Under the pieces are notes generated by a model. It had not been told where the DNA came from. It was given only the letters and a program-made list of their open reading frames with translations, and did no database searches. Of a stretch of 60,311 nucleotides of DNA, positions 19,121 to 59,022 are shown piece after piece; positions within the stretch are counted from its first letter, which is position 1; each line of letters begins with the position of its first letter. A program made the position numbers and the translations under genes. The stretch is from assembly GCF_026151205.1 (NCBI RefSeq), contig NW_026971775.1, positions 1 to 60,311 on the forward strand, written 5' to 3'. Source of the DNA: Bolinopsis microptera. Lineage: Eukaryota > Ctenophora > Tentaculata > Lobata > Bolinopsidae.

Positions 19121-19700
19121 ATTTCATTTCATTTCATTTCATTTCATTTCATTTCATTTCATTTCATTTCATTTCATTTCATTTCATTTCATTTCATTTC
19201 ATTTCATTTCATTTCATTTCATTTCATTTCATTTCATTTCATTTCATTTCATTTCATTTCATTTCATTTCATTTCATTTCATTTCATTTCATTTCATTTC
19301 ATTTCATTTCATTTCATTTCATTTCATTTCATTTCATTTCATTTCATTTCATTTCATTTCATTTCATTTCATTTCATTTCATTTCATTTCATTTCATTTC
19401 ATTTCATTTCATTTCATTTCATTTCATTTCATTTCATTTCATTTCATTTCATTTCATTTCATTTCATTTCATTTCATTTCATTTCATTTCATTTCATTTC
19501 ATTTCATTTCATTTCATTTCATTTCATTTCATTTCATTTCATTTCATTTCATTTCATTTCATTTCATTTCATTTCATTTCATTTCATTTCATTTCATTTC
19601 ATTTCATTTCATTTCATTTCATTTCATTTCATTTCATTTCATTTCATTTCATTTCATTTCATTTCATTTCATTTCATTTCATTTCATTTCATTTCATTTC
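19121..19700. repeat. Microsatellite (ATTTC)n, 116 perfect copies
   Basis: A 580-bp uninterrupted pentanucleotide array directly after the LINE C 3' UTR. L2-type LINEs end in short tandem repeats used in priming; this array most likely expanded from such a tail. It directly abuts the LINE B target sequence (gggaaaaggag) at 19701. Confidence 0.97.
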
Positions 19701-21018: not shown

Positions 21019-21115
21019 AAAATTGAGAAAAAGTTTAAATCAGAGATTTGTTTGAGTTTTAATTATAGGCGCAACGTCTTAATCAAAATATTAAATGAAA
21101 GAAAAGATCAAAGAT

Positions 21116-21769
21116 TTAAATTCCCAGAAGATTATTTACAACCCTATCAAAACTGTGTTCGTTTACAACAAACTTAAGCCAAGTGGACAGTAAACCTAGT
21201 CCTCTCATGTTGAGATGAAGCCAATCATGGTATAGAAGTTCATTACAGGATCTAAAGTCTCGAGTTAAAAAGTCTGAGAAACAGTCTAAGAACACGCAAT
21301 TATTATTTAGGCATAAATCTTTAAGTAGATTATTAAAATCTAGAACATTCTTTGCTATGTAGGAATATAAACACTTAATAGGAAGACAACATTGGATAAT
21401 TATAATTGCAGCGGGAAATAACTGCTTAGTGGTGTCAATTAAGTCAGTAAGATACTTCCTAAGGAACTGAACCCCATACTTAAAATGTTTTATGTCATTT
21501 GTACCAACACTCAATAAAATTTTTTCAATATCGTCAGCTTCTGCAGCTGCATGTGTTTTATAAAAATGCTGAATGTTTTCAGTGATGTCTCTAATTTTTG
21601 CATCACTTTGGGACACATTGATTACTTTCCTACCCCGGAATCCCAACTTATTTGTCCGTACGAATTTTGTCATTGACGTACCAAACAGGACAGTGGTTTT
21701 CCTGCTCTTCGGTTTTCTTGGAGCATTTCGGTAGTAGAGGGTTGGTGTTGAGGTGGTGGTGGGCGGCAT
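21116..21769 (-). CDS. LINE B ORF1, C-terminal SGNH-hydrolase (esterase-like) domain
   Basis: An intact 217-codon frame on the minus strand. After a Pro/Thr-rich linker it has TVLFGTSMTKFV (block I, catalytic Ser in G-T-S), LSVGTNDIKHF (block III, G-T-N-D), and DWLHLNMRG near the C-terminus (D-x-x-H catalytic pair). These are the ordered motifs of SGNH/GDSL hydrolases. SGNH domains are established in ORF1 of CR1-like LINEs, where they may act on lipids or carbohydrates or serve in particle assembly; their role is unsettled. It directly follows the AlkB-like domain, from which it is now separated by a frameshift near 21765. Confidence 0.82.
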   Translation of the reverse strand: MPPTTTSTPTLYYRNAPRKPKSRKTTVLFGTSMTKFVRTNKLGFRGRKVINVSQSDAKIRDITENIQHFYKTHAAAEADDIEKILLSVGTNDIKHFKYGVQFLRKYLTDLIDTTKQLFPAAIIIIQCCLPIKCLYSYIAKNVLDFNNLLKDLCLNNNCVFLDCFSDFLTRDFRSCNELLYHDWLHLNMRGLGLLSTWLKFVVNEHSFDRVVNNLLGI

Positions 21770-22130
21770 AGGAATACATTTGTATCTGTCTTCGGTATCT
21801 GGCAGCGAAAAGATAAGCTATACCGAGTCTCCTTAGCTGAGCTCTCTGCACGAACCTTGTGAAGACAATATTCCTGACACCCCGGTTTCATAATATACAA
21901 ACTACAGTCCTTTGGGTGATATGGCATTTACTGTTACATCGCTTATCCCCATTTTCTGGAATTATGTCGAGGGTCCTCTCAGCTCCAAATGAAACTACAT
22001 AAATACCTTGCGACTGGTCAAGAGACACATCGTCGTCGTTGTGGTACCTAGTTGCACAAGAACCAGACTTGTACATGCTTGCTAGGCATGAGTTTAGCTT
22101 GCAGCCAAACTTGGAGTTGATATCATGCAT
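21770..22130 (-). pseudogene. LINE B ORF1, AlkB-like 2-oxoglutarate/Fe(II) dioxygenase domain
   Basis: In two minus-strand frames joined near 21910-21940. First part: INSKFGCKLNSCLASMYKSG then ATRYHNDDDVSL, whose H-N-D supplies the first two iron ligands, then IYVVSFGAERTLDI. Second part: CSLYIMKPGCQEYCLHKV (third ligand His) and ETRYSLSFRC, with the Arg-x5-Arg that in AlkB proteins contacts 2-oxoglutarate. Order and spacing match AlkB-family demethylases, which remove alkyl groups from nucleic-acid bases. A frameshift inactivates this copy. A 313-bp retroposon cuts the upstream part at 22130. Confidence 0.75.
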
Positions 22131-22443
22131 TTTGATGATCCAACATATCCTGTAAAAATGGGAAAGTTTTTTTCGTTTATCTCAAAACCACTAAAAACTA
22201 CTTAGCCCACTCTTGCATGTGCAGGTTCATATGCTGTCTCGTCTCGTTTTACTTTTCCAAACCCAGCTGGCATTTAAGCGTATCATTTTGACTCATATAA
22301 CAGCTTACACCATCCTCCACCAATCACTCTGATTTCACCGCCAACCTTCCCCAAGGTTGCCACACCCCAGAGGTAGGCAGAGCATCTCAATGCTATCCTC
22401 TCGTGGGCTATCTTGGCCCAGCCTCTCTTTAAAAAAAAAAAAA
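22131..22443 (+). mobile_element. Poly(A)-tailed retroposon inserted in LINE B ORF1
   Basis: A 313-bp insert ends in an A-run at about 22431-22443 and is bounded by a 9-bp duplication ATCATGCAT (22122-22130 and 22444-22452). Removing it joins minus-strand codons for YLGISEL to MHDINSKFG, restoring the start of the AlkB-like domain. It has no coding capacity or recognisable A/B boxes, so it may be a SINE or a retrocopied transcript. Confidence 0.7.
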
Positions 22444-22747: not shown

Positions 22748-22983
22748 AGTGATGGTGGGAAGTGGGAGGAGAAAATGGCGGTGAGGGAGGAGAAAATGGC
22801 GAAGTCAATACTGTAGCCCAGGAAGTAAGGAAGTAGATGCGTTGCTTAGGATACAAACGGTCACGTCATAGTCTCTTCTATCGCTTTGACATTGGGACCT
22901 CAAACTATTTGTTATGTAGTAGTGTTGAAAGTATTAAAACTTTTTAAAAACTTTAAAAAAAAATTGCCCAATTTTAAATGAAC

Positions 22984-24372
22984 GATATCTGGTTCTTTTG
23001 CGATAGTCAAAACGTGACAACTAGCGCTGGATGGCGGCAACTAGCGCTATCCAGCGCTAGTTGTCGCCATTCAGCGCTAGTTGTCGCTATCCAGCGCTGG
23101 ATAACGCTGGCCAGCGCAAAATATATATGTTCGATAATTGTCGCTATCCAGCGCTAGTTGTTGCCATCCAGCGCTAGTTGTCGCCATCCAGCGCTAGTTG
23201 TCGCTATCCAGCACTAGTTGTCGCTGGCTATGCGACACTGTCGCACGCGATAGTTTGAGATGGCCAGCGCAACTGGCCATCGCAGAAAACAGTTCGATAA
23301 CTAGCGCTGGATAGCGACAACTAGCGCTGGATAGCGACAACTAGCGCTGGCCAGCGCTGGTCATCGATATCCAGCGCATAATTTTTGCGCTATTACTCGT
23401 CAATAGCGCTGGCCAGCGTTAGCCAGCGCTAGCCAGCGCAATGTATCAAAATCCTATACTTGCGATATTACTCGGATGATGATTAATCACTTTACACTCG
23501 ACTGTCACGTGACTTTTTTAACCCATTCTCTGACTCTAGCTGGTTCTGAACGACTTTTCGAAACCCTAACCCTCTAATCTGATCCCAACCCTAACCCTAA
23601 CCCAATCCTTAACAAAAACATATGCTGAAACCCTAACCCTAACGAGAAATTAGACTAACTTCCTTATACGGTCATATCACGTGATCAATACAGTTTTTCG
23701 CCAATATCTCGTCAGGAGAGCATTTTAACCCTATGTCATGGGGGTTGATTCGTAATTAGCATTCGAATATACATTGCATCGATTGAAGTTGGTTACAACC
23801 ATCAGGGGCCCTTTTAGAACAATCTCGAAGATCGACTGTAGAGTGATTTAGCACGCTCGATATTAGTATTACTCGTCAGCGCAATATAGTTGCGATATTA
23901 CTCGTCAGCTAGCGCTGGCCAGCGCTGGCCAGCGCTAGCTGACGAGTAATAGCGCAAAAATTATGCGCTGGCTATCGCTTAGCGCTGGCCAGTGGCCAGC
24001 GCTGGCCAGCGCTAGTTGTCGCTATCCAGCGCTAGTTGTCGCTATCCAGCGCTAGTTATCGAACTGTTTTCTGCGATGGCCAGTTGCGCTGGCCATCTCA
24101 AACTATCGCGTGCGACAGTGTCGCATAGCCAGCGACAACTAGCGCTGGATATCGACAACTAGCGCTGGATGGCGACAACTAGCGCTGGATGGCGACAACT
24201 AGCGCTGGATAGCGACAATTATCGAACATATATATTTTGCGCTGGCCAGCGTTATCCAGCGCTGGATAGTGACAACTAGCGCTGGATGGCGACAACTAGC
24301 GCTGGATAGCGCTAGTTGTCGCCATCCAGCGCTAGTTGTCGCGTTTTGACTATCGCAAAAGAACCCGATATC
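22984..24372. mobile_element. Foldback element built of 20-bp subrepeats (agcgctagttgtcgctatcc)
   Basis: Ends carry GATATC-n-GGTTCTTTTGCG continuing to gatagtcaaaacg in inverted orientation (22984 on, and complement ending 24372). Arms of about 480 bp (to about 23470, and from about 23900) consist of many copies of a roughly 20-bp unit, itself containing the palindromes agcgct and ctag. The central spacer (about 23470-23900) has telomere-like repeats. No ORF. Foldback elements with internally repetitive arms are known in invertebrates; the superfamily of this one is unclear and no target duplication is evident. Confidence 0.85.
23561..23645. repeat. Interstitial telomere-like (CCCTAA) repeats
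   Basis: Several short blocks of ccctaaccctaac, broken by other bases, lie within the spacer of the foldback element. CCCTAA/TTAGGG is the telomere repeat of most animals. The blocks may come from telomere-mediated repair or capture by the element. Confidence 0.75.
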
Positions 24373-25447
24373 TCATTCTACAGTATGATGAGGGCGTAAA
24401 GAGAATGCTTCTCGGAATCAGCATAATAAAGGGAACGAGATGCTGTTGAAATTTTAATCATTCATCTTCCACCCGTAGTCCCTACGTCACCGAGCGTCAT
24501 TAAGCGTCATCTAGCGTCATTTTGCGTCATCTAGGATCATCTAACGTCATTTCACGGTAGATGATGCTAGATGACGAATTTCAACAATCGGCAAAGGTCC
24601 TTCTCTGTCTCTAGATTAACGGAAAAATATTCTGTACATCCCAAATCTGCCTGTTCTGTACCATACTGCTTGCTACTAAACCTTTCCTCTGTCTCTAGAT
24701 TAACAGAACAATTAAAGTTTGTTTAACCCATATCTGCGTGTTTATTATTCGGTTGTATTTGCTTCCATGTGGAATGCAGTGGATATTTTATCGCAAATTT
24801 ATTTATTGGCATTTAATTATTTATTTTGTTTTATCGCTGATATTGACCAGAATATAAGTAAGATTTTAGTTTTTCCAAACTACGATATGAGGACTATTCT
24901 GATATCATGTTTGATATGGTGAGAGCTATATCATTATATTATATCTACATTTAGACTTAGAGGGGTAGTGAGTTATATATTTCTAGATATTTTAGTATTT
25001 TTGTGGGCTCTGGAAGTCAAGAACTGTTTTAACCCTTCGGATCGTTGTTTTAGCTGAAGACGATTTAAACATGTATTTTGAAAGCTCCCGCTAAGCAAAC
25101 TGTTCGTATCACTTATATTTGTAAAGCTGAAAGCACGGTGTATGGCCTACACGGACCGCCTCTAACTGGTACGGAGATGGTGTGGCCCTACCTGTGGTCA
25201 GGGCATGATGCGCGGGGGCTGATTTGATTCTGTCTGTGGATTCGTCAATGGCGTTGTTGAGTCTGTAGTTTTGTAGATACAAGAAGCCGGATGACCCAAT
25301 CCACCTGGGGTCAAGCGGTATCTTTAAACTCTCCCGGGCAATTGCACATAAGATCCTAGGTAGCCCCGTTGATGGGAGGTTGTTCAGTGATGTTACCAAG
25401 GCCCAAAAAAGATTTTCCCCACGTTCTCGTAGATCCATAGTTATGTC
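24373..25447. other. Non-coding stretch between foldback element and LINE A
   Basis: 24486-24556 holds five or six copies of a 12-bp motif (agcgtcatctag) with mismatches. About 25125-25170 is reverse-complementary to the end of the 278-bp tandem unit at 1106-1661. A 109-codon ORF on the minus strand (25109-25438) ends exactly where LINE A copy 1 begins to be recognisable; it has no identifiable domain and may be part of the LINE 5' UTR read backwards or of an older repeat. Confidence 0.45.
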
Positions 25448-26767
25448 ATGATAGCCAAACTAATATGCGAAATTTGCTGCTGCTGCAATAGACCTGTGCG
25501 TGCTGGACATCCATTCATAACTTGTCAGATGTGTGACAAGATAATGCACAAAAAATGCAAAACTGATGATAACATAGTCAAATTTCGAGATGCAACATAC
25601 TGCAAAATATGCACTGATGCCAATGATATCGTTCGGTATAACCCTTTCTACCAAGCTCCCCACTTTGCAAACAATGGCCTCATTGATGATGAGCCAGTTA
25701 ATTATATTGAATCTATCTACAATAGCTCAAAGATTCTTGAAAATTGCAAAACATTCTCAATAACAGAGTTGAATGCCACCATCCTACCTAAAAATTCAGC
25801 TAAATATTTGTCCAAATTATTTCTAAATATTGATGGAAATGCATCAAACTTCGACAACTTTGCAGTTGAATTGTCTTGTATCGACCACAAATTCTCTGTT
25901 ATCGGCCTTGCAGAAACAAACACTAATCCCGAAAATGGAACTCTGTATCAGCTTAACGGATACTCCTCCTGTTACCAATCACGCTACTTTTGCCAAGAGA
26001 AAAACCAGTTCAAGGGTAAAGGGTCAGGGGTGTGTCTTTACCTACACGATTCCCTTAACTTTAACAAAATCACTGACTTATCTCTCTGTAATGAACACAT
26101 AGAATCACTGTTTGTATCTATCACTAGCTTGCAAGATCCAACTGTCGTAGGGGTTATATACCGTCCCCCAAACGCATCACTTGAGATGTTCAACAAAGCG
26201 TATGAATGTATTCTCTCAAAACTGAATGGCAAAAAAGTATATATTCTTGGTGATTTCAATGTTAACATTTTGAACGACCCATCTCCATCAGAGGACAAAT
26301 TCCAAGAAATAATATTCAACAACGGCTTCATACCAACCATATCAGTACCAACTCACCAAATGCCTGGCTGTTCCAGGACCTGTATTGACAATATCCATAC
26401 CAATGTCGTAGATCAATCCCTTATTTCTGGTGTGATATCTGACAAGATCTCCCACCATCACCCTATATTCACTCTTATTGAACTTTCCCCTGACTCTGTG
26501 CCAACACCTGATTCATCAGACAAAATTACTATACACTACGACTATAGTAATGCTAACTTAGAGAAGCTCTGTCTTGAAATAGAAAACGATATAGATAGGT
26601 TCCACCACAGCTGTAACACATTTGACTCTTTCGTGCAGTTATTTCAAGAAAAGATAGATTTGTCTTGCAAACTTCTAACTCCTAGAACCACTAAACGTAA
26701 CAGCATAACCAACCCTTGGATCACCCAGGGCCTCATTAACTCCATCGACAAGAAAGCTAGGTTGTGA
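25448..26767 (+). pseudogene. LINE A ORF2: PHD-like finger and APE endonuclease
   Basis: The N-terminus has a Cys/His cluster of PHD type (CCCC, ITCQMCDKIMHKKC, YCKIC; residues about 10-57). The endonuclease follows: LNIDGNASNFDNF, VIGLAETNT (catalytic Glu), GSGVCLYLHDS, GVIYRPPNA, VYILGDFNVNIL (GDFN), HQMPGCSRTCIDNI, ISHHHPIF (catalytic His region). All key residues appear present. The frame ends at a TGA in codon 440, and the same frame continues downstream, so one substitution separates it from the reverse transcriptase part. PHD-type fingers are known in CR1-like LINEs. Confidence 0.83.
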
Positions 26768-27886
26768 TTCGAATGGAAGAAGACTTGTACATTAAAACTA
26801 CCTGATGGGGATCCAAACAAGCACATCTACTACAAGGAATTCGACAAGTTTCTCAAGAGCTCAATAAAGATGGCAAAGGCCATGTGCTATACTCAAAAAT
26901 TCGAGAAGTACAGCATGAACTCAAAAAAGACTTGGGAAATTATAAATGAACTCCGTGGCAAAAATTTGTCTAGATGTAAGGACGATTTTGTCATAGATGG
27001 CCAGAGAGTTACTTGCAGACGAATAATTGCTAACAAATTCTGTGAATATTTTACATCTCTTGCAAGTAATCTCAATAAAAATGTACTGTCAAACAATAGT
27101 ATTTCTCTGGAACCAGTAGAATCATTTGCTCAGTTTATGTCTAATTCGGTATCTGACTCCATATACCTGGAAGAAACTAATGAAGAAGAAATTATAGAGG
27201 TGATCCGAGACTTTCAAAATGGTAAGGCGAGTGACATACCTATAGTTGTTGTAAAAAAACCGGCCAAGCTCATTGCTGGTACCTTAGCTAGGCTTTACAA
27301 CACATGTATACAAAGTGGTACATTCCCAAGTATTTTTAAAACTGGTAAAGTTATTCCTATTTACAAGAAAGACAATAAAGAATGCATTGAAAATTATCGG
27401 CCTGTATCAATATTACCTTTATTTGGAAAGATCTTCGAGAAGGTCATTTATAAACGCCTCTATAATTTCTTCACATCTAAAGGTGTACTAACAGACTCAC
27501 AGTTTGGATTTAGAAAAGGCCATTCTACCACCCATGATCTACACAAATCTATAGACTCCGTTACTAAGTCTCTGGCAAGCAATAAACATGTCCTAGGGAT
27601 ATTCATTGACTTGAGCAAAGCCTTCGACACCCTTGATCACGATATTCTTTTATGCAAATTAAATTCCTACGGTATTAGGGGCACAGCACTTACCTTACTA
27701 AAAAGCTATTTGACTAACAGAAAGCAGTATGTTATGTATAACGATGTACCATCAGAAACAATGGACGTGAAATTTGGAGTACCGCAAGGGTCAATTCTAG
27801 GGCCGTTACTCTTCCTATTGTATATGAACGATATAGTAAACTGCTTTTCAGACAGTGAGGTGAAATTTGTACTTTATGCTGATGAC
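26768..27886 (+). pseudogene. LINE A ORF2: reverse transcriptase up to the YADD motif
   Basis: Same frame as the endonuclease. Motifs: WEIINELRGKNLS, NGKASDIPIVVVKK, KTGKVIPIYKKD, ENYRPVSILPLFGKIFEKV, SQFGFRKGHSTT, GIFIDLSKAFDTLDHD (block A), FGVPQGSILGPLLFLLY, FVLYADD. After YADD at about 27884 the sequence dissolves into C- and A-homopolymers that are probably not genuine. Up to that point the domain looks intact. Confidence 0.88.
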
Positions 27887-28697
27887 CCCCCCCCCCAAAA
27901 AAAAAACCCCCCTGCGGCCGCAGGCCAACACGAACTTTCCCCTTTTTCGAAAACCCCCCTTTCAAAAACAAAAAAACGAAAATCCCCCACAAATTATTTT
28001 TTTCCCCCCCCCCCAAAACCCCTTTTTCCCCCCCCTAAATTCCCAAAACCACGGGTTTAAAAACCCCCCCCCCCCCAAACCCCCCCAAAAACCCCCTAAC
28101 CCCCCCCCTACCCCCCCAAACGCCCCCCCCCCCCCCCCCCCAAAAACTTTTTAAAAAACCCGGAATTGGGCCCCACCCCCCAAAAAAAAAACTTTTCTCC
28201 CCCCCAAAAAAAAATTTTCCCCAAACGGCAAAAAACCCCCCCGGCACCCCCCCACCCCCCCCCCAAAACTTTTCTTTTCCCCAAAAAAACCCCCAAAACC
28301 AAACGGCCACAAAACAACAAAAAACCCAATTTTAAATTTTTCCCCCCCATTTCAAAATAATCCCCCCAAACAACCCCAAACCACCAAAACCCCCCGAACA
28401 TAGCCCACCCCACCAACCTTTTTTCCCCGGCGGTAAACTAATAAACTCTGGTATTTCAAACCCCAGGCCAAACATTTTTTTAATAAAAAAGTCAAAGCCC
28501 CCTATCCCCCCCAAACAAAACCCCCAAACAGAATTCCACCATCCCTTCTAACTAAAAAAATAAAAATTCTTTTTTAACACACCTTTTATGTTTTGGGGTG
28601 GTTAAAAAAGCCCAAAAGCTTTTCATCCACAAAGACTAAAGGGTTTTTTTTTGGGCCCTAATTTAATAAAAAACAACTGTGCACAAACCCCCCGGGT
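27886..28697. other. Probable sequencing or assembly artefact inside LINE A
   Basis: About 810 bp made largely of C-runs and A-runs with few G or T, starting abruptly in the codon after YADD and ending abruptly before a clean LINE A C-terminus. Copy 2 needs only about 580 bp for the same interval. Proline-, glycine- and phenylalanine-rich ORFs on both strands here are meaningless. A NotI site (GCGGCCGC) near 27914 could come from a vector linker. It looks like a low-quality read end incorporated in the assembly. Confidence 0.75.
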
Positions 28698-33570: not shown

Positions 33571-34001
33571 CATTTGTTTTCGCAATTAATGCAAAGGCAA
33601 AAGTCTGAACATTTTTACCCCTCCGCTTTAACACAAGGACAATGTTTAGTTTTGCATCCAGTTTTACATCGGCAAGTGTTGCAAAGTTCATCAGGAATGA
33701 GGTTAAGTTACTTGTTGGCATAAAGATCGCCCCTTCCCCATCATTGCACATTCACTCCATTTTACATCTCATCCAACACATTTGACGTTTCAGTATACTT
33801 TATTTATTTTCAATCGTACTTTATAACTCATTAACTAGCCTTAAATCTACTGGTGATTCCTGCTAAGCTTAACGTGATCACTGATAAATTTATGTTTCTC
33901 ATCTCACTGCCGCCTAGCTTGTTTCAGGTTTACTGGTCTGGTTCGATGGGTCTGACCCTGGCCCCCTCCGCTCACCCCTGTACTCCGCATCCATTATCAC
34001 C
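33571..34001. other. Flank and 5' UTR of LINE D
   Basis: No gene is seen in 33571-33850. From about 33900 the sequence becomes GC-richer (gtctgaccctggccccctccgctcacccc) and leads to the ATG of LINE D ORF1 at 34002, so this is probably the element's 5' UTR. The exact 5' end and target duplication were not found. Confidence 0.5.
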
Positions 34002-35003
34002 ATGAAAGGGAACGACAAGAAACTCGACAGGAGATCGGACCTCTTTAATGCCACGTCTCGAGGGTGCAAGTCAGCTGGATCCACCCCTATTTCAAACCCT
34101 GTTTTAAGCCGAAAAGTCACTAGCAGAATGCATAGTAGGAACACAGTTCTAGATGCAGATCTAACATCTGACAGAGACTTTGTAGATGTAGAGAGCAACG
34201 AACCAGCATCGATCCCAGGCACGATACTCTCTAAGTGTCCCTGCTTTGTAGAGTCAAAGAACCCCGCAATCTTATGTGTTAATTGTAAGCAGACCTTCCA
34301 TGCCACCTGTGTTAACCTGGCTGGCTTAACAGTAGCTTCTCTAAGGAAGCTCAGCACTTCCTGGAAGTGCCCGGACTGCTTTATCTTTCCTTACACAAGA
34401 AGATTGAAGGAGGAGGATAAATCCAAAGCCTTAACAGAATTCTTTAGCAACATTGCTAAGATATCCAAATGTAATGAGGACCTCAAAGATAGTACAACAA
34501 CCATAGAGTTCTTCAACGAGCATATCAAACACCTCATACTCAAGGAGGACAGTTACAAAGATCACTCCAAAAAAACAGAACGATTAGTAACTGGAATTGA
34601 AGACATCACTGAAGACATAGCTGTTATCAAGGATGTACTTACGAAAGTAAAGGAGAGTGGCTCAGCTCTTGAGACAACCAGTTATTCTCTCAAACAGGAG
34701 ATTGATGACCTGAAGGACTCTCTCAAAAGTATTCCTATTACAGAGCAACTCCCGACCAACAGCAGTACTTTCGATCATGTTGATAACCTGATGACTCAGA
34801 TCAAAGTGCAATTGGAAAAGATCAATGATCATGTTTGTCCCTCAACGTCCACACAGAAATTTGATGAAGGTGAACTACCCAACAACGACTCTATCGTTAT
34901 GACCCCTAACACTACTTCCCCTCACTTTGCTCCATCTCAAATTTCTATAGACCCTGCATGTGACCCTTATATAACTTATCAGGAAGATATAGTGCCTGTT
35001 TAG
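34002..35003 (+). CDS. LINE D ORF1, N-terminal part: PHD finger and coiled coil
   Basis: 333 codons from ATG 34002. After a basic Ser/Thr-rich leader there is a PHD-type finger at about residues 77-126: CPCF...ILCVNCKQTFHATC...WKCPDCF (C-x-C, C-x2-C, H-x2-C, C-x2-C). PHD fingers bind histone tails, which could guide insertion. It is followed by long Lys/Glu/Leu heptad-like helices (for example IEDITEDIAVIKDVLTKV) that suggest a coiled coil for multimerisation. The TAG at 35001 ends this frame, but the same frame continues directly into the AlkB-like domain, so the stop is probably a mutation. Confidence 0.83.
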   Translation: MKGNDKKLDRRSDLFNATSRGCKSAGSTPISNPVLSRKVTSRMHSRNTVLDADLTSDRDFVDVESNEPASIPGTILSKCPCFVESKNPAILCVNCKQTFHATCVNLAGLTVASLRKLSTSWKCPDCFIFPYTRRLKEEDKSKALTEFFSNIAKISKCNEDLKDSTTTIEFFNEHIKHLILKEDSYKDHSKKTERLVTGIEDITEDIAVIKDVLTKVKESGSALETTSYSLKQEIDDLKDSLKSIPITEQLPTNSSTFDHVDNLMTQIKVQLEKINDHVCPSTSTQKFDEGELPNNDSIVMTPNTTSPHFAPSQISIDPACDPYITYQEDIVPV

Positions 35004-35344
35004 CTTCACAGCAAACTTATAAAGCTGCTGGAGGACAGTAGTGCAGCTTTTTCTTCGGTTGGTAGCAGCAGGGATGTCATCTACTTTGGTGAACATGGAT
35101 ACTGGTATACAGGAGCATATCATCAGGCAAAGGAAACTCCGGTAGAGATACAAGATCTTTTGGACTGTGTGCGCCCCTCTCTCCCCAATAGGAAGAGCTG
35201 GCTGAACTCTTGCCTTGTAACAAGATATACAGGCAACAGTAGCCATATCCCTCAGCACTGTGACAATGAGGTACTTATTGACCCTGAATCAATAATAGTC
35301 ACTGTGTCTCTTGGTGAAGAACGCACAATAAAGTTTACTCATAA
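35004..35344 (+). pseudogene. LINE D ORF1: AlkB-like dioxygenase domain, first half
   Basis: In frame after the TAG: VIYFGEHGYWYTGAYHQA, VRPSLPNRKSWLNSCLVTRY, then SSHIPQHCDNEVLIDP and SIIVTVSLGEERTIKFTH. H-C-D (35256-35264) is the HxD iron motif, followed by the N-E and S-L-G-x-x-R strand typical of AlkB-family proteins. The half-domain stops at the 7-bp target duplication of the nested RTE-like LINE; joining 35344 to 37443 resumes it in frame. AlkB enzymes oxidatively remove alkyl groups from DNA or RNA bases using 2-oxoglutarate and Fe(II). Confidence 0.8.
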
Positions 35345-37435
35345 CTTACTTGACTTACTGACTTAAGGCGGCTTCAGCGTCCGAGTATTGATGCGCTGTC
35401 TCCATAAAACTCTATCCGCCATAAGTCCGCCCATTTCTCCAGTGTCGTTGAGACCCGTGTCAGCTCGTAGGCTATCAACATAGGTCATGGCTGGTCTCCC
35501 CCTACTCCGCACCCCATGAGTTGGTTCCCAGAGTAGCAAGCGGTTTGCGACTAGTTCTGGGTGCCGGTGGATATGGCCTGCTAGTCGCATCCTGCGCTCT
35601 TGGATCTTCATGGTTGCTCTCGGTAGGTTGCCATAGACTTCTTTGTTGGTTTTTCGCTGCTTCCAATCCACATTAAGTGCCATCCTTAGCATTCTAGTGT
35701 AGCAGCCATCAATGCGTTTCTTCAATTGCTCTGTCAACGTCCAGGTTTCAGAACCATAAAGAAGTATTGACTCCACAGTAGCAACAAATAGACGGATCTT
35801 TAGTCCTCTTCTAAGGTCAGACTTCCACATCTTCTTTAGCTTGTGGCAGGCTGCCCAAGCCTTAGCTTTTCTGACCCGCAGGTCCCTCTCTGTTGTTGCT
35901 ATCCAAGCTCCAAGGTAAACAAAGTCTGTCACCTTTTCCAGCTGGTTTCCAGAACAGCTATTAAGACTACTCGCCTCCTCTGTCATGTTCAGAGTCATGA
36001 ACTTAGTTTTAGAGCCGTTCATGGCTAGCCCAACACTCAGTGCTGCTTTCTCAAGCCTGTCCAGGAGTAGTTTTGCCCCTTCAATGGTATCAGTGATAAG
36101 GGCAACATCATCTGCAAACTCGACGTCTGCGATCTTCTCGGCACCAATCCTTCTACTCCGTGCAGGCCTGAGGGTAAACCCAGAGTCCGAGTCATCATCG
36201 TCTATAGTCACTGTCATGATATAGTCAATCACGATAATGAACAAGTACGGGGCAAGAGTGTCTCCTTGCAGTACTCCAGCCAGGATATCAAAAATTTCTG
36301 TTATACCATCGGCTGTAACTACTTTAGCCTTTGTGCTCGTATAGATACCCTCAATGAGCCGCACTATGGCTTCTGGTATGCCATATGCTTTTAATATCTT
36401 CATGAGCAAACCTCTATGCACACTATCGAACGCCTTTTTGAAATCAATGAAAACCATGGTGGCCTTAAGATTTTTGGCTCTAGCACCCTCCATAATTCTT
36501 CGTAGAGCAAGGATGTGCGATGTTGTAGAGCGCCCAGGTCTAAAGCCATTCTGGTTGTCCCTTAAAACTTCCTCAAGACTTGGCTTCATCCTGTTCAGCA
36601 ACATTTTGTTCAGAGTTTTACTGACTATCGATGTCAGAGATATTCCTCTGTAGTTGTCGGTCTTAGTGAGGTCCCCTTTCTTTGGCACAGGAACAATATT
36701 ACTGAGCTTCCATTGATCGGGCATGAGACCATCACATAACGCATCGTTGCAGAACTTCAGGATGACGTCATCGATGTCCACCCTCTTCATCACTTCAGGT
36801 GAGATACCATCATCACCATAAGCTTTGCCTTCTACTATCTGCTTTTTGGCAAGACGTAGTTCCTCAATGGTGAACGGGCCATCCTCTATATTCAGTGGAG
36901 GGTGTATATTCCTGATCGGAATACTATTGTCAGGGACTGTGGGTGGCTGTCCAAGTAACCCAGAGAAGTGCTTCCTCCAGTTCTCAAGACGTTCTGTTGA
37001 GCTGCCCCCTTCCACGAGTCCACAGCTGGGATTTGTCCTCCCTGAAATATCGTTGACAAGCTTCCAGGATTCCTTGTTCTTACAACGATCAGCAGTATCC
37101 TCAACTTTCCTGATCTTTCCTTTCAGGATCTCCTCCTCTACCTCTTTGTAGCAGGCCTTTAACAAATCCTTTTTAGTGGCGACTTCCTCTCTCTTCTCCT
37201 CACAAGGCTCCTGATGGTATTGGTCCTTGGCCAAGAACAGTCCCCTCCTTGCACTGTCCACTCTTGGGTCACTTGAGGGGTCAATCTGCTTTTGTCGAGT
37301 CTTCTTTGGCAGAAGGCTCTTGTTTGCCGCCTCAATAGCAACCATAAGCTTCCCGTAGCTTTCAGTGGCCCCATCATCCTCCTCTACCAGGCCAGAGAAT
37401 CTATTCCGAACTTCAATTGCATACTTTTTTTGAAG
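35345..37435 (-). mobile_element. RTE-like LINE inserted in LINE D ORF1
   Basis: Minus-strand element between duplicated CTCATAA (35338-35344 and 37436-37442). It begins mid-ORF (KKYAIEVRNRF at the 5' truncation) and ends with a tetranucleotide-like tail (gtcagtaagtcaagtaag on the minus strand), as RTE-clade LINEs do. Excision with one CTCATAA restores the host frame exactly. Confidence 0.9.
35363..37432 (-). CDS. RTE-like LINE: reverse transcriptase (5'-truncated, otherwise open)
   Basis: About 690 codons open from the truncation point to the stop at 35363. Motifs: QWKLSNIVPVPKKGD, NYRGISLTSIVSKTLNKML, QNGFRPGRSTTSHI, ATMVFIDFKKAFDSVHRG (block A), LAGVLQGDTLAPYLFI, DVEFADDVALI (FADD catalytic motif), VYLGAWIATTERDLRVR, ILLYGSETWTL, and a C-terminal GHIHRHP...RGRPAMTYVDSL. 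The GNYRGISL and FADD forms are typical of the RTE clade. No stop or frameshift is visible, so insertion into LINE D is young. Confidence 0.88.
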   Translation of the reverse strand, partial: QKKYAIEVRNRFSGLVEEDDGATESYGKLMVAIEAANKSLLPKKTRQKQIDPSSDPRVDSARRGLFLAKDQYHQEPCEEKREEVATKKDLLKACYKEVEEEILKGKIRKVEDTADRCKNKESWKLVNDISGRTNPSCGLVEGGSSTERLENWRKHFSGLLGQPPTVPDNSIPIRNIHPPLNIEDGPFTIEELRLAKKQIVEGKAYGDDGISPEVMKRVDIDDVILKFCNDALCDGLMPDQWKLSNIVPVPKKGDLTKTDNYRGISLTSIVSKTLNKMLLNRMKPSLEEVLRDNQNGFRPGRSTTSHILALRRIMEGARAKNLKATMVFIDFKKAFDSVHRGLLMKILKAYGIPEAIVRLIEGIYTSTKAKVVTADGITEIFDILAGVLQGDTLAPYLFIIVIDYIMTVTIDDDDSDSGFTLRPARSRRIGAEKIADVEFADDVALITDTIEGAKLLLDRLEKAALSVGLAMNGSKTKFMTLNMTEEASSLNSCSGNQLEKVTDFVYLGAWIATTERDLRVRKAKAWAACHKLKKMWKSDLRRGLKIRLFVATVESILLYGSETWTLTEQLKKRIDGCYTRMLRMALNVDWKQRKTNKEVYGNLPRATMKIQERRMRLAGHIHRHPELVANRLLLWEPTHGVRSRGRPAMTYVDSLRADTGLNDTGEMGGLMADRVLWRQRINTRTLKPP

Positions 37436-37442
37436 CTCATAA

Positions 37443-38265
37443 GTCGACTGAAAAGTCCTTAAAGCTCAAAGATGGAAGTGTGTACGTGATGTCCAGGTTG
37501 TCCCAGGAAATCTGGAATCATGGTATTGAACCTCTCACTAATGAAGAAGATGAAGAAGAATCTGATGAGAAAAATTCTGTGAGGTACAGCTTTACCTTTA
37601 GGCATATTGCGCCTTACTACAAAAATAGCACAGTTTTAATTGGGGACTCAAACACTAAATACATTAAATTTGGTAAAGATGTTGGAACTCTCGGAAAATG
37701 GGTTCCTGGTAAGCGAATGTGGGCTGCTAAAATTGACGATATTCTTGCTCCGAAAGACATAGGCCCTTATCGGAACATTGTTATACACACGGGAATCAAT
37801 GATATTCGGGATGATTCCAACAGACCATCTACTAGAACACTTATTGCTAAGCTTAAGAAGAAATGTAGTGAAATTCAGCAATTTTATCCTAATAGTAAAG
37901 TTCATATTAGTCTACTCTTGCCCACTAAATCACAGTTTGTTAACTCACGTATAGGGGAGTTAAACAGTTTAATTGTCGACATGGTTTATAATAGGAAAAA
38001 CATGTTTATTATAGATAACTCTGTACTAGGTTCTGTTAACGGATGCATGCCTTCTAAGTATGGTCGATTCTCACGTGATGGCACACCATTGGTCAATGAT
38101 GTGGTACATCTCGGAAGAGAAGGCCTGAAAATATTTTGCATGAGTATAAAACGATGTATTGTACAACGTGGTGGAAGTCAGTCCACGGAAAGATTTAAAG
38201 GTGGAAATGGTGACTATAGGAGTGCCCTAAGTAGGGGTAGTAGGGGTGATATCTTACCGATATGA
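37443..38265 (+). CDS. LINE D ORF1: AlkB-like second half and SGNH-hydrolase domain
   Basis: The frame resumes with KSLKLKDGSVYVMSRLSQ and WNHGI (third iron ligand His at 37519-37521), then VRYSFTFRHI, whose two Args (37582-37584, 37600-37602) match the AlkB R-x5-R. About 20 residues later the SGNH domain starts: TVLIGDSNTKYI (block I Ser), VIHTGINDIRD (block III, G-x-N-D), a central LLLPTKS, and NDVVHLGREG (D-x-x-H). It ends with stop TGA at 38263-38265, overlapping the ORF2 start. Both domains keep their catalytic residues. Confidence 0.85.
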
Positions 38266-38932
38266 CCTCAATAAACTTTAATATTACAAGAGAGAGATGT
38301 CCAGGTTGTGATAGCAATGTACTAAGCCATCATAAAGTCATAATATGTGAGTGTTGCGATACAATATATCATGCCAAATGTTCTGAACAGAGCTTTAAAT
38401 TTGACCATGTTAAACAAATGTGGCACTGCAGTCAATGTTTCGCCTTCAAATCCCAAAGGTACAATCCTTTCAACTCAATTATTTATGACAAATATGATCC
38501 CAACACTGTAGAAAGAGACGAAGATATGGAGACTATTTCAAACATTCTAAAAGACTGTAGGTCTTATAACATGACAAATTTCAACCGGCTGTCAAAAAAC
38601 ATACTTAACCATAACAAGCCGTTTATATCTATTGTGTTTAACAACATTGTGTTTAACAACATAACAACATTGAGGAAAATAAAGATTTATACAAAATTGA
38701 TGGTTACAGCAGTGAGTACAACTCCAAAACTGATGGGAAAAAGAAAGGTAGTGGCCTTGGTGTATATATTGACAATAAGTACCAATACAGCCGAATCGAA
38801 AAGTTATGTAAATGCTCTGACAATCTTGAAACACTTTTTGTTGAGATCACTAACACAGAGGTTCCACAGATTGCTGGTGTTGTTTACAGGCCCCCTAGTG
38901 GTGATATTCTAGATGCACTTGCTGAGCTTGAC
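38262..38932 (+). pseudogene. LINE D ORF2: PHD finger and damaged endonuclease start
   Basis: ATG at 38262 overlaps the ORF1 stop. A PHD-type C4HC3 finger comes first: CPGC...IICECCDTIYHAKC...WHCSQC. Then NPFNSIIYDKYD and FNRLSKNIL as in LINE A. At about 38640 a 14-bp duplication (gtgtttaacaacatt) is followed by loss of the endonuclease N-terminus, including the Asn/Glu catalytic region. The proper frame resumes from about 38668 (LYKIDGYSSEY, GLGVYIDNKYQ, GVVYRPPSGD). The endonuclease is therefore inactive. Confidence 0.75.
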
Positions 38933-41619
38933 GTGTTGATGAAATTCCTACCGTCTAACAATGTAGCCTTGACAGGTGACTTCAATGTTGATCTTTTGGC
39001 CCAGGGACGAAACATAGCTGAATTTGAACAAACTATCTACAGTAACAATTTAATACCTTTGATATCGATCGCCACCCATGCCAAGCCGGGTTGCAACGAA
39101 AGCTTAATTGATAATATTTTAGTGAACTCTACTGAGCGTGTCATAGGATCTGGAATTCTTGAATCCAAGATTTCACATCATAACCCAATCTTCTGTTTCA
39201 TATCGTGTAATACTAAAGAGAGCCCAAATGATACCAAACTTAAACCTAAGTATGATTACTGTGAGTCTAATATAGAAATATTCCTTAATGATATTGGAAG
39301 GGATATCTACCGATCGAACTTTTCGTATGATGAGGAAGGTTTTGAAAAATTTGTCGAAACTGTCCATGAAAAAATCGAACTGAATTTCAAATTGGACTCT
39401 ACTGCTGGTTTTCAATCAAAACGCAATAGATTGATGAATCCATGGATCACTTCTGCGTTAATTAAATCTGTGTTTACTAAAGGCTTTCACTACAAGCGAT
39501 GGAAGGCTTCGTGTACCAAAATCAACTCATTAGGTGAGGAAACTTTATATCTTAAGTATAAGGAGTATCGTTCTATCCTAAACAAAGCTATAAAATCTGC
39601 GAAAAAAGCCCACTATGGAAAAAAATTTGAACTTGCTAAAGGAAATATTAAAAAAACCTGGGAATTGATTAACGAACTCAGGGGTAAATCTAAAAAAGAT
39701 ATAAAAGCATCATTCTTAATTGATGGTCGAATTGTAATTGAACGCCGTGAGATTGCTAACGGATTTAACATCTACTTCTCGTCTATTGCTCGTAATCTTA
39801 ATTCAAAAGTTCAATCTTCTGTACCATCTCGTACGGTAACTGATGGCAATTTCATTAAAACGAAGTTTAAACAATACCTCAAGGGCAGAGAAAGAATAGT
39901 GAACTCTTTTTTTCTCAGCCCCTGTGACGAGGAAGAGATAAGTAAAATTATTGGTAGCCTTGAAAATGGGAAGGCAAGTGATATCTCTGTTAAAGTCTTA
40001 AAAAAGAGTGTAAATTATCTGTCTGGTCATATCTCTAGATTCTTTCATTGGTTCTTGGACAATGGGGTCTTTCCAAACAAGCTTAAAACGGGCTCTATTA
40101 CACCAATTTATAAAAAAGGAGACTCACGATGCCTTGATAACTATCGACCTGTTTCTACATTACCGATATTTGGAAAAATACTTGAAAAAATAATCTATAA
40201 TAGGTTATATAATTACCTCAGTGCTATGAACGTGATTTATGATCGACAATTTGGTTTTAGAAAACAACACTCAACATCTCATGCCGTAAAATATTCTGTC
40301 AATAAAATACTTAATGAGATTGAACAGAAAAATCATGTAATTGGAATATTTATTGATCTAAGTAAAGCATTTGACACAATTGAGCACGATAAACTCCTGC
40401 ATAAACTTGAACACTATGGAGTAAGAGGTATTGCACTAAAAACTTTTGCTAGCTATCTAACAAACCGTAGCCAAGTAACTTCTTTTCAAACTGAAAAGTC
40501 GGACAAGTGTTCAGTTGAGTATGGTGTACCCCAGGGGTCAGTGTTAGGACCTCTACTATTTCTGATTTATATAAATGATATTGTGAGCTCCTCAAGCTTG
40601 GCTGAATTCGTCCTGTTTGCTGATGATACAAATATTTTTGTGATGGTAGTTCAGCACAGGAAGCTTTTGAAAAAGCTAATCATGTAATGAAACAAGTCAG
40701 TAACTATATGGAGTCTAACAAGTTACATATAAATGCAGGGAAAAGTTGTTATATGCATTTTCAGCCAGGTTTGTCAAGAGCAACACAGACCTGTGCCAGA
40801 ACACGGCCCTTTAACAGGAATCTAACGATTTTAATAGATGGCAAAAAGCTAGAAAAAGTTCAATGTACAAAGTTTCTTGGGGTGATAATAGACGAACAGC
40901 TAAGCTGGGAACCACATCTTAATCATTTATCTTTAAAGCTGAACTCCAGTATTGTATCGATTAAGAGAATTTGGAAATTCATTCCCAAATCTGAATATTT
41001 GAAACTATACAATGCTCTTTTTATGTCACATCTTAGCTATTGTATAAGTTGCTGGGGTGGGATCCCTAAGTATAAGCTGAATAAAATCTTTGCAATTCAA
41101 AAACGATGTACAAGACTGCTATTTGGTAACATTCCCAATTTTGATCATAAAGAATACTATTTAACCTGTGCACGTTCAAGAACTTATAACGAACATATGG
41201 CTAGCAAGAACTACTGTCTTGAACATACTAAACCTCTATTCACCGAGCAGAAAATTATGAACCTGGAGAATCTGCACATGTACCATACATTTATGGAACT
41301 ATTCAAAATTCTTAAATTTGATGTCCCCCAGTCGATTAAAGATCTTTTCAAGTTCTGTCCCAGAAATGAAAAACTTCGTCTGATTGTCCCATTACTGAGG
41401 TTAGATATCTCCCAACAGAACTTTTTGTACACCTCTACGAAAATTTGGAATGACCTCAGCCCCTATGTATTCGAAATATGTGATGCTAATTTAGATGGGA
41501 TAATAATCCCGGGTTCTTCCAAGAATTCAGACTTATCAGCTTCGTCAGGTGTTATTAAATCTAACCTTAAAAAGCACTTGCTATCCCTCCAAAATCGAGA
41601 TGACCCTAATACATGGTAA
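38933..41619 (+). pseudogene. LINE D ORF2: endonuclease C-terminal half, reverse transcriptase and C-terminus
   Basis: Open from 38933: ALTGDFNVDLL, THAKPGCNESLIDNI, SKISHHNPIF, then the linker WELINELRGKSKK and the reverse transcriptase: NGKASDISVKVLKK, TGSITPIYKKGD, NYRPVSTLPIFGKILEKI, QFGFRKQHSTS, GIFIDLSKAFDTIEHD, YGVPQGSVLGPLLFLIY, FVLFADDTNIF (FADD). A one-base loss near 40640 shifts the frame; the rest (ANHVMKQVSNYMESNKLHI to the stop at 41619) continues in the next frame. Close relative of LINE A ORF2. Confidence 0.87.
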
Positions 41620-41935
41620 CTAATCTATATTATATCTCAAACTCTACATCCGGTACGGCTATGCACACATGATATCTCTCTCTGCCATGAAACATGGCTA
41701 ACCTTTTAAACTGTGATTCAAAACCTAAAGCTAAACTAAAACTCAACTGGGCTCTCCTTTGTCACCAAACTAAACCAATAAGTAATTTTAGATTATTATA
41801 TTTTTCTATATTTGTATAATAAGTATATTGACGTAGTGGATGGTTGAGGGGGTTTCAAGCACAGGTCACTCTCAAATCCTAAAGATAAGCAGTGGCCTTC
41901 GGCACTCGAAACCTCTTCAAACCTCCCCTGATTTA
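41620..41935 (+). other. 3' UTR of LINE D
   Basis: Follows the ORF2 stop and contains ttaatgcacacatg-like AT-rich sequence, ending near ctgatttatttattattg. It directly abuts the minus-strand repeat-gene remnant that starts at about 41940, so LINE D probably inserted into that gene. Confidence 0.5.
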
Positions 41936-41939
41936 TTTA

Positions 41940-42776
41940 TTATTGATATTGTTTGATTGTGCCGTAAAAATAAATATTTGTTTTATTATAAATATTTGTT
42001 TTATTAGTATCCTCTGATACCACTGTGGCACGGGACCTTGAAAACATAGTTATGTCCCATCCAATATGTGGTATTATCCTGAGGTCTGCTTCTTCGTATT
42101 TGAAGTTCAGCTGATCGATTTGTTGTACATTACCCAGGTCATTAAGATGGAGTGCTGGTTTAGAGACATTTTCCACTACTGTACCACTAAAAATAATTTG
42201 AATTTTGACCTTACGAGCCAAATCAAGAACATGCGACGTTACAAAGCTCTGGAACTTTTCTTTGTTTGCAGAGCATGCCCAAAACTTCGGCATCTGTTCG
42301 GGAACTTTAGTGTCGCTTCTTATTCTTGCTAGGCGGATAATACCACCAGCTGCTGCAATCCTGGTGGCTCTTTCACGACCTTTAAGAGAGTTGTCCATGT
42401 AGCTGTCAAAAACGATGTGAAAAAGTGCTACATCGGGGAACCTCTTGAAAACTCTAGCAAATGCCTCTGCCATCATCATCCTGAATGTCCAGACTGAAGG
42501 ATTATCTTGGATTCCAAATAAAGACGGTGCTTTCAGGTCCAAGCTTCGTCCTCTGATGAACGACATAAAGTCGACCACAACAGCCTTCTCGTAAGAAGGA
42601 TTGCATATAAGATCGTCAGTTTTGAAGGATGCTTTCTTTTCAAGTTCCTCCCTCATTTTATTTTTGATTGGTTTTACCATCAAAGAACCGTTGAAGAGCG
42701 TACTATAGTTTGTAATATCATACTTAAGAACTCTTGCTAAATCATCATCTTTACTAATTACTTTTTGTAATATAAA
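41940..42776 (-). pseudogene. Remnant of an unnamed invertebrate repeat gene, C-terminal piece
   Basis: Minus-strand frame with SPFILQKVISKDDDLARVL (42700-42780), LFNGSLMVKPIKNKMREEL, VVVDFMSFIRGRS, LFHIVFDSYMDNSLKGRERA, and EEADLRIIPHIGWDITMF then ATVVSEDTN. I recognise this order (short Phe-His-Val-Val-Phe-Asp block, then an E-E-A-D-x-R-I-I block, then a v-v-S-x-D-T strand) from a large family of uncharacterised, transposon-like proteins of invertebrates. The EEAD and DT acids hint at a PIN/FEN-like nuclease fold, but that is a guess. It is cut at 41940 by LINE D. Confidence 0.6.
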
Positions 42777-49103: not shown

Positions 49104-50240
49104 AAAGACCCCATTTATATTTATATCTTTTAAATTTTACACCTGTCACTCACATCATATATACACCACAAAAGAAAAATATCCATTCAATCATTACATT
49201 ATACACTCACTCCACCACACATGCACACAAACCATTGAACCAGGTTACACACGGGTGTACCGTTCACTTTATCCGAAGGGAAAAATGATGCTTTACGTAA
49301 CGCGCGATTTACGTCTTGGTAGCTAAATTATTCAAGCGCTACTTGTCAGAGGGACACAAATGCGCGCGCGAGCGCTTGCGCGGCTCACTTATCCAACACT
49401 CATGTTTACATCGTATCAAGCAATGGTTCAGTTTAATTATGGTAAGGGCACAGCCTGTCAAAAATACTTTTCGCATGATCCGTCGACACCGCCTGAAGGT
49501 GACTGCATAATAACGGATCAACGTTGAATCAAACATTAATAAGCTTGCAGCTTCCGATGACAATGTGTTCAACCTGGTGTCATGCTTGAATTGGTTTTGG
49601 ACCTCTTCATGCTTTTGATTTATTTATTATTGTTATTTGGTATTATGAGCTAACATGTACATATACATACGGTATCTAAAAGTTAAGTTTACTAGCAGGA
49701 ACCCGTATGATATAACCCTAAAATGGTGTCAAGACTTAAGAAACTAAAATAATTATTACTTATAATAATAAGTAATAGCGGAAAGTCGCGTTAAAGTTGA
49801 TGCCGTGGTGTCAGTAAAATGGCACAGATATATATATATATATATATCGTCTCGCTTTATATATAGTAAGATAGCGAGCATATTTAACAAATTTTAAGCA
49901 ATAATGTATTGCGAGCAGCTGTAACTTAAATATCGCATAAAAATCATATAACTCAAAACTAAAATTTTACTGGAATATAGGGAAAACTAAGATAAAATCT
50001 TTTCTCAAAGAATAAATACATCATTATTATATTATTATGTTATACATTCCCAATCATACTGTTGAGAGTATAACATCTATTAACTATAATGGAAATCCAG
50101 ATCGTTGATATTTTTATTATAAAATTACGACATCACTTACTTGGCAATGACAAGACAGTTTAAAATGAATTGGATTATACAATAACCAATGGTTCTGAGC
50201 AACAAAACGTCTAATAAAGCTGACAATATATTCAACTCAG
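49104..50240. other. LINE E 3' UTR, then intronic sequence
   Basis: 49828-49848 is a (TA)n run. From about 50020 the sequence is the upstream part of the duplicated SRCR-TSP1 block. No ORF worth reporting. Confidence 0.5.
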
Positions 50241-50576
50241 ATGTTGCACCAACTACTGAAACTGGTATCTTGTTCCGAATCGTTGATGAAAATGGAAACG
50301 ATCTTCCGGAGGATGAAAAAGGTCTGTTGCTTTACAAGGGTGGAACAGTGTGTGACGATGATTTTGATTATAATGCTGCACATACGATTTGTAAAGAAAT
50401 GGGATCTACTGGTGCACAAAGTTGGGAAAATGGGGAATATTTTAGCTTACAGGATAACTTGGACATCAAACTGGATAATGTGCAATGCCTTGATGAACAT
50501 GAGTGGTCATCTTGTAGTTACAGTGAAGTTCACAACTGTGACCATCGCGAGGATGTCTTCCTAACTTGTGGCGAAG
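50241..50576 (+). CDS. SRCR-domain exon, copy 1 (phase 1-1)
   Basis: Acceptor attcaactcag and donor gtaaac enclose 336 bp (112 codons, phase 1 at both ends). The domain: LFRIVDENGND, LLLYKGGTVCDDDFDYNAA, TICKEMG, QDNLDIKLDNVQC, EWSSCSYSEVHNCDHREDV, FLTCGEG. Six cysteines in the usual group-B-like spacing, and GTVCDD and HxC-x-H-x-E-D are hallmark SRCR sequence. SRCR domains bind ligands, often microbial, in secreted or membrane receptors. The ORF is open upstream to an ATG at 50189, but the exon starts at 50241 as judged by the acceptor and shared phase. Confidence 0.88.
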
Positions 50577-50782
50577 GTAAACTTTTTACATATACTGATG
50601 ATGACTACTTAAATTGTATAAAGGTTTTGTTAAACGTAGTCGTGGCTACACGGAAGTAATCATTTCCTAATTTTATCACGATTTTAATGAACACGTTATA
50701 AGCCGAACCAAAAATTAGTTTTATCATATTCTTACTTTCTAGGAGTACGATGCTATCGCTAATATAATTTTTTATTTGTCAG

Positions 50783-50950
50783 TTGATGGAGGGTATAGTG
50801 AATTCGGAGATTGGTCAGAATGTTTCACCTGTGGAGGAGGCAACCAAAAACGAATAAGAACTTGTACTGAACCTCCTCCGTCACAAGGTGGTGCAGATTG
50901 TGTCGGGGAAGCGTCCGAAACTCAACCTTGTTATGAAGATGACTGTCCAG
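50783..50950 (+). CDS. TSP1-domain exon, copy 1 (phase 1-1)
   Basis: Acceptor tttatttgtcag and donor gtttaa enclose 168 bp (56 codons). Sequence: DGGYSEFGDWSEC, FTCGGGNQKRIRTC, EPPPSQGGADCVG, ETQPCYEDDCP. This is a thrombospondin type 1 repeat with six cysteines, a W-S-x-C start and the C-G-G-G-x...R-x-R-x-C core (here KRIRTC). It lacks one residue present in copy 2 between the first two cysteines. TSP1 repeats bind glycosaminoglycans and matrix proteins. It lies 206 bp after the SRCR exon, so the pair forms a splicing-compatible module. Confidence 0.88.
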
Positions 50951-51163
50951 GTTTAAATCATACATCTTCATACAGAGTGTTCCACGCAAACGTTAAATAT
51001 CTTAAAATTGTTCATAGTTTAATTGCTTTCTGGAAAAGAGGAGGCCCAGTATATCAACGTACCCAGTATTATAGAGTTGCACGGTATAACCTTATAATAA
51101 TAAATAAACATTAAACATATCAAACGAATCAAGAATAATTCATGTGAGTAAAATCATAAAATC
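50951..51163. other. Intron between TSP1 exon copy 1 and LINE A copy 2
   Basis: AT-rich, no gene. The long ORF that reads through the TSP1 donor to 51114 is a frame extension into the intron. Confidence 0.6.
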
Positions 51164-58528: not shown

Positions 58529-59022
58529 GCTGTACTTCTCGAATTTTCTAGTATAGCACATAGCTTTTGCCATATTTAATGAGTTTTTGAGAAACTTGTC
58601 GAATTCCTTGTAGCAGATGTGCTTGTTTTGATCCCCGTCAGGTAGTTTTAATGTACAATTCTTTTTCCATTCGATTTCTATTTCAAGACAGAGCTTCTCT
58701 AAGTTAGCATTGCTATAGTCGTAGTGACCTTTCTAAATAAGAATTATAAAGAATATATAAGGTATTATAAAGTATAACATAATATGATAATGATGTATAT
58801 ATACATCATTATTATATTATGTTATACTTTCCCAATCATACTGTTACGGGTATAACGTCTATTAACTAAAATGGAAATCCAGATCGTTGATATTTTTATT
58901 ATAAAATTACGACATTACTTACTTGGCAATGACAAGACAGTTTAGAATGAATTAGATTATACAATAACCAATGGTTCTGAGCAACAAAACGTCTAATAAA
59001 GCTGACAATATATTCAACTCAG

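Follow-up and report, generated by a model that had tools for sequence, protein, structure and literature searches.

Analysis of a 60311-base stretch of the Bolinopsis microptera genome (the first 60311 of the 124311 bases of contig NW_026971775.1, hereafter the window) revealed a two-ORF long interspersed nuclear element (LINE) whose first open reading frame (ORF1) combines a PHD-like finger, a coiled coil, an AlkB dioxygenase domain and an SGNH hydrolase domain. This ORF1 has many diverged AlkB-bearing counterparts among the LINEs of the same genome (264.65 Mb in 232 contigs searched). The identity of the AlkB domain is nearly certain. Its fold is predicted to be of the AlkB type, the residues expected to bind iron and 2-oxoglutarate are present, and its substitution rates show signs of purifying selection.

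Domain content and state of the window copy

The LINE copy occupies 33729–42006 on the plus strand, an extent set by its match to the intact copy L009 (blastn segments 33729–35344, 37436–38649 and 38671–42006, 98.6–99.8%). In the raw sequence, ORF1 runs from an ATG at 34002 to a TGA at 38263–38265 and is split by a nested LINE on the minus strand (35345–37435; RT [reverse transcriptase] frame 35363–37465, RVT_1 E 1.2e-31). Comparison with L009 showed that a 7-base duplication, CTCATAA, flanks this insertion (35338–35344 and 37436–37442). An earlier note on this DNA had described the interrupted frame with its single TAG, which lies at 35001–35003. The note's coordinates for the motifs HCD (35256–35264), WNH (37513–37521) and RYSFTFR (37582–37602) proved exact to the base, and the SGNH blocks GDSN, GIND and DVVH follow downstream. 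The ORF1 portion up to the TAG (34002–35003, plus strand) is intact in the copy L005. ORF2 (38262–41619, plus strand) begins in an ATGA overlap with the end of ORF1 and encodes a zinc-finger-like N terminus, an endonuclease and an RT (RVT_1 E 8.2e-32). Its counterpart in L009 is an intact frame of 1147 amino acids (aa), but the window ORF2 carries an internal deletion and a frameshift; since ORF2 is damaged besides ORF1, the window copy is dead. The 3' end shows approximately two copies of a 17–19 base AT-rich unit (TAAATATTTGTTTTAT...).

The two halves of ORF1 were searched separately, with the insert left in place. Pfam 2OG-FeII_Oxy_2 (PF13532) matched 35004–35363 at E 2.3e-7 (31.7 bits, cut-off 31.2; profile positions 56–139 of 194) and 37450–38262 at E 2.3e-6 (28.4 bits, below cut-off; positions 147–194). 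The matches cover complementary stretches of the profile, so they are parts of a single domain. Its 5' part, with HCD, spans 34947–35344 (start placed from the modelled domain by similarity), and its 3' part, with the distal histidine in WNH and the arginine pair in RYSFTFR, spans 37436–37602, both on the plus strand. PF13532 scored above its cut-off in all eight intact relatives, and chance occurrence of the motifs was rejected in view of the Pfam matches in the window and its relatives and 150 genomic matches. A single-sequence search of the PDB with the 5' part found ALKBH2 at an E of only about 0.01. The predicted structure of one close relative (P0001; not all LINE types are covered by it) contains a double-stranded beta-helix of the AlkB type. 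The significant profile match and this fold together uphold the earlier identification of the domain.

The iron ligands HxD...H and the 2-oxoglutarate residues (R...R and N-Y) were invariant in 12 representative ORF1s, and each position was kept in 150–152 of 152 AlkB domains. One could suppose that the domain serves for structure or nucleic-acid binding and needs no catalysis; esterase-type ORF1 proteins are described without known RNA-binding domains (PMC3905857), and an AlkB fold could provide one. The near-absolute conservation of the cofactor residues points instead to chemistry, and we consider a purely structural role highly improbable.

The SGNH domain and ORF1 end (37603–38265, plus strand) gave a Pfam GDSL_2 match at E 0.015; in relatives this profile mostly stayed below cut-off, with P0040 above it. 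The assignment, also made in the earlier note, is well borne out by S176, G224, N226, D326 and H329, invariant in the 12 representatives, and by a fold match in the P0001 model with Z up to 19.9 (the VIA-align comparison spans model residues 311–681 and barely covers the N-terminal half). The coiled-coil region (approximately 34400–34840, plus strand) was placed by similarity to the P0001 model, which has long helices at residues 130–171, 175–235 and 248–271. For the proposed PHD finger (34251–34379, plus strand; residues 84–126), the C4HC3 pattern was recognizable by eye, but the Pfam PHD match (E 1.1e-4 to 3.2e-4) stayed below cut-off, its 22.6 bits at E 1.1e-4 lying just under the 24 bits required.

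Related elements, selection and ORF1 exchange

A genome search with a 120-aa AlkB piece returned 716 candidate places, 150 of which were scored, so that the counts given here are lower bounds; all 150 matched at E 5.7e-11 or better. Thirty-three of them, including the window, were at least 88% identical, and 13 of these lay in open frames of at least 700 aa (two of the 33, about 1 kb apart on one contig, may be a single element). The remaining 117 places were 33–64% identical, many in long open frames. L005 has a full 721-aa ORF1 with no stop, overlapping ORF2 as ATGA. Such intact copies and long frames show that the nested insertion did not create the fusion. Twenty loci were then fetched across identity classes, with an AlkB frame present by choice (only 403 aa in L013 and 441 aa in L024). 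An RT-bearing frame of more than 500 aa lay downstream in 17 of the 20; L014 retained only an ORF2 tail, and L013 and L025 had no RT frame within the fetched span. The ORF2s of L009 and L016 matched RVT_1 (2.1e-38 and 5.9e-35) and Exo_endo_phos (7e-4 and 3e-12), the apurinic/apyrimidinic-type endonuclease and RT of a LINE. The flanks of L009 and L010 differ.

Protein database matches carrying an organism name all came from the ctenophore Mnemiopsis leidyi (3 of 42, 2 of 120 listed and 3 of 19; seven different proteins), and several JGI rows were annotated as AlkB, one of them as 'AlkB/lysophospholipase L1-like esterase'. The AlkB-SGNH fusion noted earlier thus extends beyond the window genome, to Mnemiopsis and other database sources. 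The split, stop-bearing state of the window copy might have suggested that an SGNH ORF merely happens to adjoin a host AlkB gene or some other transposon, or that the assembly is chimeric. Intact frames at many chromosomal places, the downstream RT frames and the recurrence of the fusion in other sources leave that explanation a negligible probability, and we excluded it on the strength of the multi-copy intact elements.

The 12 representatives, with pairwise ORF1 identities of at most 56% (BLAST), fell into three types, and AlkB lay directly upstream of SGNH in all 12. Type I (L009, L011, L018, L022, L025) showed a PHD-like finger by eye in all members but L025. In type II (L014, L016, L017, L020) and type III (L021, L023, L026) a spacer precedes ORF2, and a Pfam search detected no PHD. 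A further type (P0040–P0042) has two AlkB domains ahead of SGNH, as judged by profile matches, the AlphaFold model of P0040 (3 rows) having a mean predicted local distance difference test score of 35.9. A profile search from these three proteins yielded 19 proteins in all. P0151–P0160 are related to this tandem form, the two AlkB domains having been checked for P0040–P0042 alone.

Two more AlkB LINEs lie in the window. A 5'-truncated element of the L025 type (25251–28060, plus strand; tblastn 88% over 66 aa, E 2.3e-32) retains an ORF1 tail at 25251–25448 followed by an endonuclease-RT ORF2. A decayed AlkB-SGNH LINE of a third family (19714–22170, minus strand, several frames) has an ORF1 like the P0040/P0156 group (tblastn with P0156, E 1.9e-28) and an ORF2 similar to that of L017 (36% over 442 aa, E 1.1e-67).

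The ratio of nonsynonymous to synonymous substitution rates (dN/dS) was calculated for eight pairs, three of which were close enough for use, while five were mostly saturated. In the three close pairs (the second with few differing sites), dN/dS was 0.10, 0.20 and 0.28 for AlkB, 0.06, 0.15 and 0.27 for SGNH, and 0.47, 0.26 and 0.54 for the N-terminal part. L023/L028, the sole saturated-set pair with a computable AlkB value, showed no contrast (0.13 versus 0.16 for the N-terminal part); the other computable values were 0.38 (L016/L020) and 0.36 (L017/L020) for the N-terminal part and 0.25 (L009/L011) for SGNH.

ORF1 and ORF2 did not always share a history. In L023/L024 and L021/L028 the ORF2s were 98–99% identical, whereas the ORF1s were just 52–55% identical, and each ORF1/ORF2 combination was found twice among the fetched loci. 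In trees, the L017 ORF1 clustered with type II (support 97/96), whereas its ORF2 paired with that of another LINE in the window (100/100); an L017-type ORF2 recurs in L029 with unchanged spacing, and also in L030, there with an internal gap. The RT tree comprises LINEs of this genome only. Two of its branches were flagged as long, as was a meeting of long branches that involves L017, so only strongly supported pairings were used. The near-identical ORF2s with diverged ORF1s and the L017 mismatch show that an AlkB-SGNH ORF1 is able to move as one piece; this agrees with what has been described for CR1/L2 LINEs, whose ORF1s evolved reticulately (PMC4120745).

Predicted function of the AlkB domain

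A family profile of the LINE domains ranked ALKBH3 (2.4e-22) and ALKBH2 (2.5e-22) first, well ahead of ALKBH8 (1.8e-10), E. coli AlkB (1.5e-6), a DNA N6-methyladenine (6mA) demethylase (8.5e-4) and ALKBH5 (0.005). As single queries, L016 and L023 also found ALKBH3 first. ALKBH3 and ALKBH2 are likewise the nearest solved structures, at a domain identity of about 19–26%. The domain is thus probably ALKBH3/2-like, a class assigned by search scores; the N6-methyladenosine (m6A) class represented by ALKBH5 was not favoured (0.005 against 2.4e-22). ALKBH2 and ALKBH3 demethylate 1-methyladenine and 3-methylcytosine (m1A and m3C) in DNA, and ALKBH3 also does so in RNA. With the fold and cofactor residues, these scores support the earlier interpretation that the LINE carries a base demethylase of its own, here a predicted one.

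We give about even odds to the model, taken as a whole, of a retrotransposon that brings along an enzyme to clean its template, in which the ORF1 protein demethylates the element's RNA or cDNA. The ORF1 protein would multimerise through its coiled coil on the element RNA, and its AlkB domain, a predicted ALKBH2/3-like demethylase, would strip Watson-Crick-face methylations (m1A, m3C) from that RNA and perhaps also from single-stranded cDNA; left in place, these would halt the RT of the element while target-primed reverse transcription is under way. The SGNH esterase may serve membrane or ribonucleoprotein (RNP) steps, following the proposal for ZfL2-1, and the PHD finger may anchor the complex to chromatin. 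We propose this model because the domain appears ALKBH2/3-like, because methylations of the m1A/m3C type impede reverse transcription, and because AlkB treatment, which removes m1A and m3C, helps cDNA capture by the R2-derived RT of the OTTR method (PMC12140624). Each functional step of the model is inferred.

The ALKBH2 and ALKBH3 structures were solved as those of DNA repair enzymes bound to damaged DNA, which would also suit an enzyme that acts not on RNA but on 1meA or 3meC in DNA left single-stranded while target-primed reverse transcription proceeds. The cDNA is short-lived, however, and ORF1 proteins are generally thought to coat RNA (PMC3905857), and repair confined to cDNA or target-site DNA seems distinctly unlikely. 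Alternatively, the domain could be a counter-defence eraser that removes host marks (m6A in RNA, 6mA in DNA) from LINE RNA, host RNA or the target site and so escapes silencing. The AlkB protein of an orchid Ty3/gypsy element demethylates m6A in vitro, with the same role proposed there (PMC9289625), and the PHD finger could read chromatin. We nevertheless find an eraser role doubtful: the LINE domains score far nearer to ALKBH2/3 than to ALKBH5 or the DNA 6mA demethylase, and human L1 retrotransposition is promoted by m6A and suppressed by ALKBH5 (PMC7873242), so that m6A erasure is not obviously useful.

Several points weigh against the template-cleaning model. The substrate is not fixed by sequence class, and E. 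coli AlkB-type enzymes accept several; L022 alone matched ALKBH2 only, and weakly (E 7e-4). The presence of m1A or m3C on ctenophore LINE RNA is presumed, and demethylase activity, RNA binding and expression of the ORF1 protein are predictions. The fold model is that of one close relative, and the tandem form rests on profile hits. To our knowledge, most LINEs do without AlkB. Viral AlkB models are equally close by fold (best E 8.1e-16 in BFVD), so that kinship by fold is not specific and the captured domain may have had a viral source.

More tentatively, at somewhat below even odds, we suggest that a large radiation of animal LINEs, spanning several RT lineages, relies on an ALKBH3-like ORF1 enzyme that removes RT-blocking template methylations (self-repairing RNPs), with AlkB-SGNH as an exchanged functional unit that was doubled to AlkB-AlkB-SGNH in one lineage. 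A LINE ORF1 protein would thereby gain a second named chemistry beside the esterase, and whether template base methylation limits retrotransposition becomes directly testable. Strict conservation across many diverged families suggests that the putative activity pays for itself. The elements also offer natural pairs of AlkB and a LINE RT, a combination that laboratories already use when AlkB treatment of RNA precedes R2-type reverse transcription (PMC12140624). The interest of these LINEs lies in their breadth, strict catalytic conservation and testability.

Other window features and comparison with known systems

Elsewhere in the window, a six-base repeat of about 1 kb (14690–15760; KDKDKD or SLSLSL) lies between LINE coding pieces, and a five-base repeat of about 0.6 kb (19095–19722) reads SFHFI in three frames. 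Positions 22900–24360 contain many repeated or inverted GCTAGTTGTCGC/CCAGCGCTGG motifs; judged by eye, this may be a non-autonomous DNA element bounded by inverted ends. Near-identical exon sets at 50186–51114 and 58968–59833, a local duplication, have the look of SRCR and thrombospondin type-1 domains on inspection by eye.

PHD/esterase ORF1s of CR1/L2 LINEs were reportedly described by Kapitonov and Jurka in 2003. The PHD/esterase ORF1 suggests that the present LINEs belong to the CR1/L2 group (Jockey superfamily), a suggestion drawn from ORF1 only. The earlier note knew of no LINE of this architecture, and in the open-access literature (subscription journals, preprints and Repbase lying outside its scope) we came across no description of a LINE carrying AlkB; among the matches listed there, the sole mobile element with its own AlkB was the orchid Ty3/gypsy element. 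Already known are AlkB in that retrotransposon (PMC9289625) and, as the earlier note held, PHD and esterase domains in CR1/L2 LINEs (PMC4120745, PMC3905857). Like the present LINEs, CR1/L2 LINEs (Metcalfe and Casane 2014, PMC4120745; ZfL2-1, PMC3905857) combine a coiled coil with an SGNH esterase and a PHD finger (PHD-like in the present LINEs), no RNA recognition motif having been found, and have an ORF2 with endonuclease and RT, and their ORF1s were swapped between ORF2 lineages (PMC4120745). They differ in having no AlkB, a word missing from PMC4120745, whose survey of 448 elements placed the esterase type in two vertebrate groups only.

Enzyme ORFs including GDSL are common to several retroelement types, as in ORF3 of bdelloid elements, but these are long terminal repeat (LTR) elements with separate ORFs, and the text names neither AlkB nor a dioxygenase (PMC5408684). 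The AlkB domains of plant Alphaflexi-, Betaflexi- and Closteroviridae likewise serve an RNA-based mobile genome, with RNA repair proposed, as the earlier note also stated; they differ in lying inside viral replicases that, as described there, are without RT, SGNH or PHD (PMC9289625). ALKBH3 and ALKBH2 have the fold and catalytic residues in common with the LINE domain but are stand-alone repair enzymes. The orchid Ty3/gypsy element is, like the present LINEs, a retrotransposon with a captured AlkB whose cofactor residues are kept. It is, however, a plant LTR element of one recent lineage, with a separate ORF2 that encodes an ALKBH5/ALKBH9B-like protein of demonstrated m6A activity (PMC9289625), whereas the AlkB domain of the present LINEs, its activity predicted only, is ALKBH2/3-like, fused to SGNH within ORF1 and found in many old lineages.
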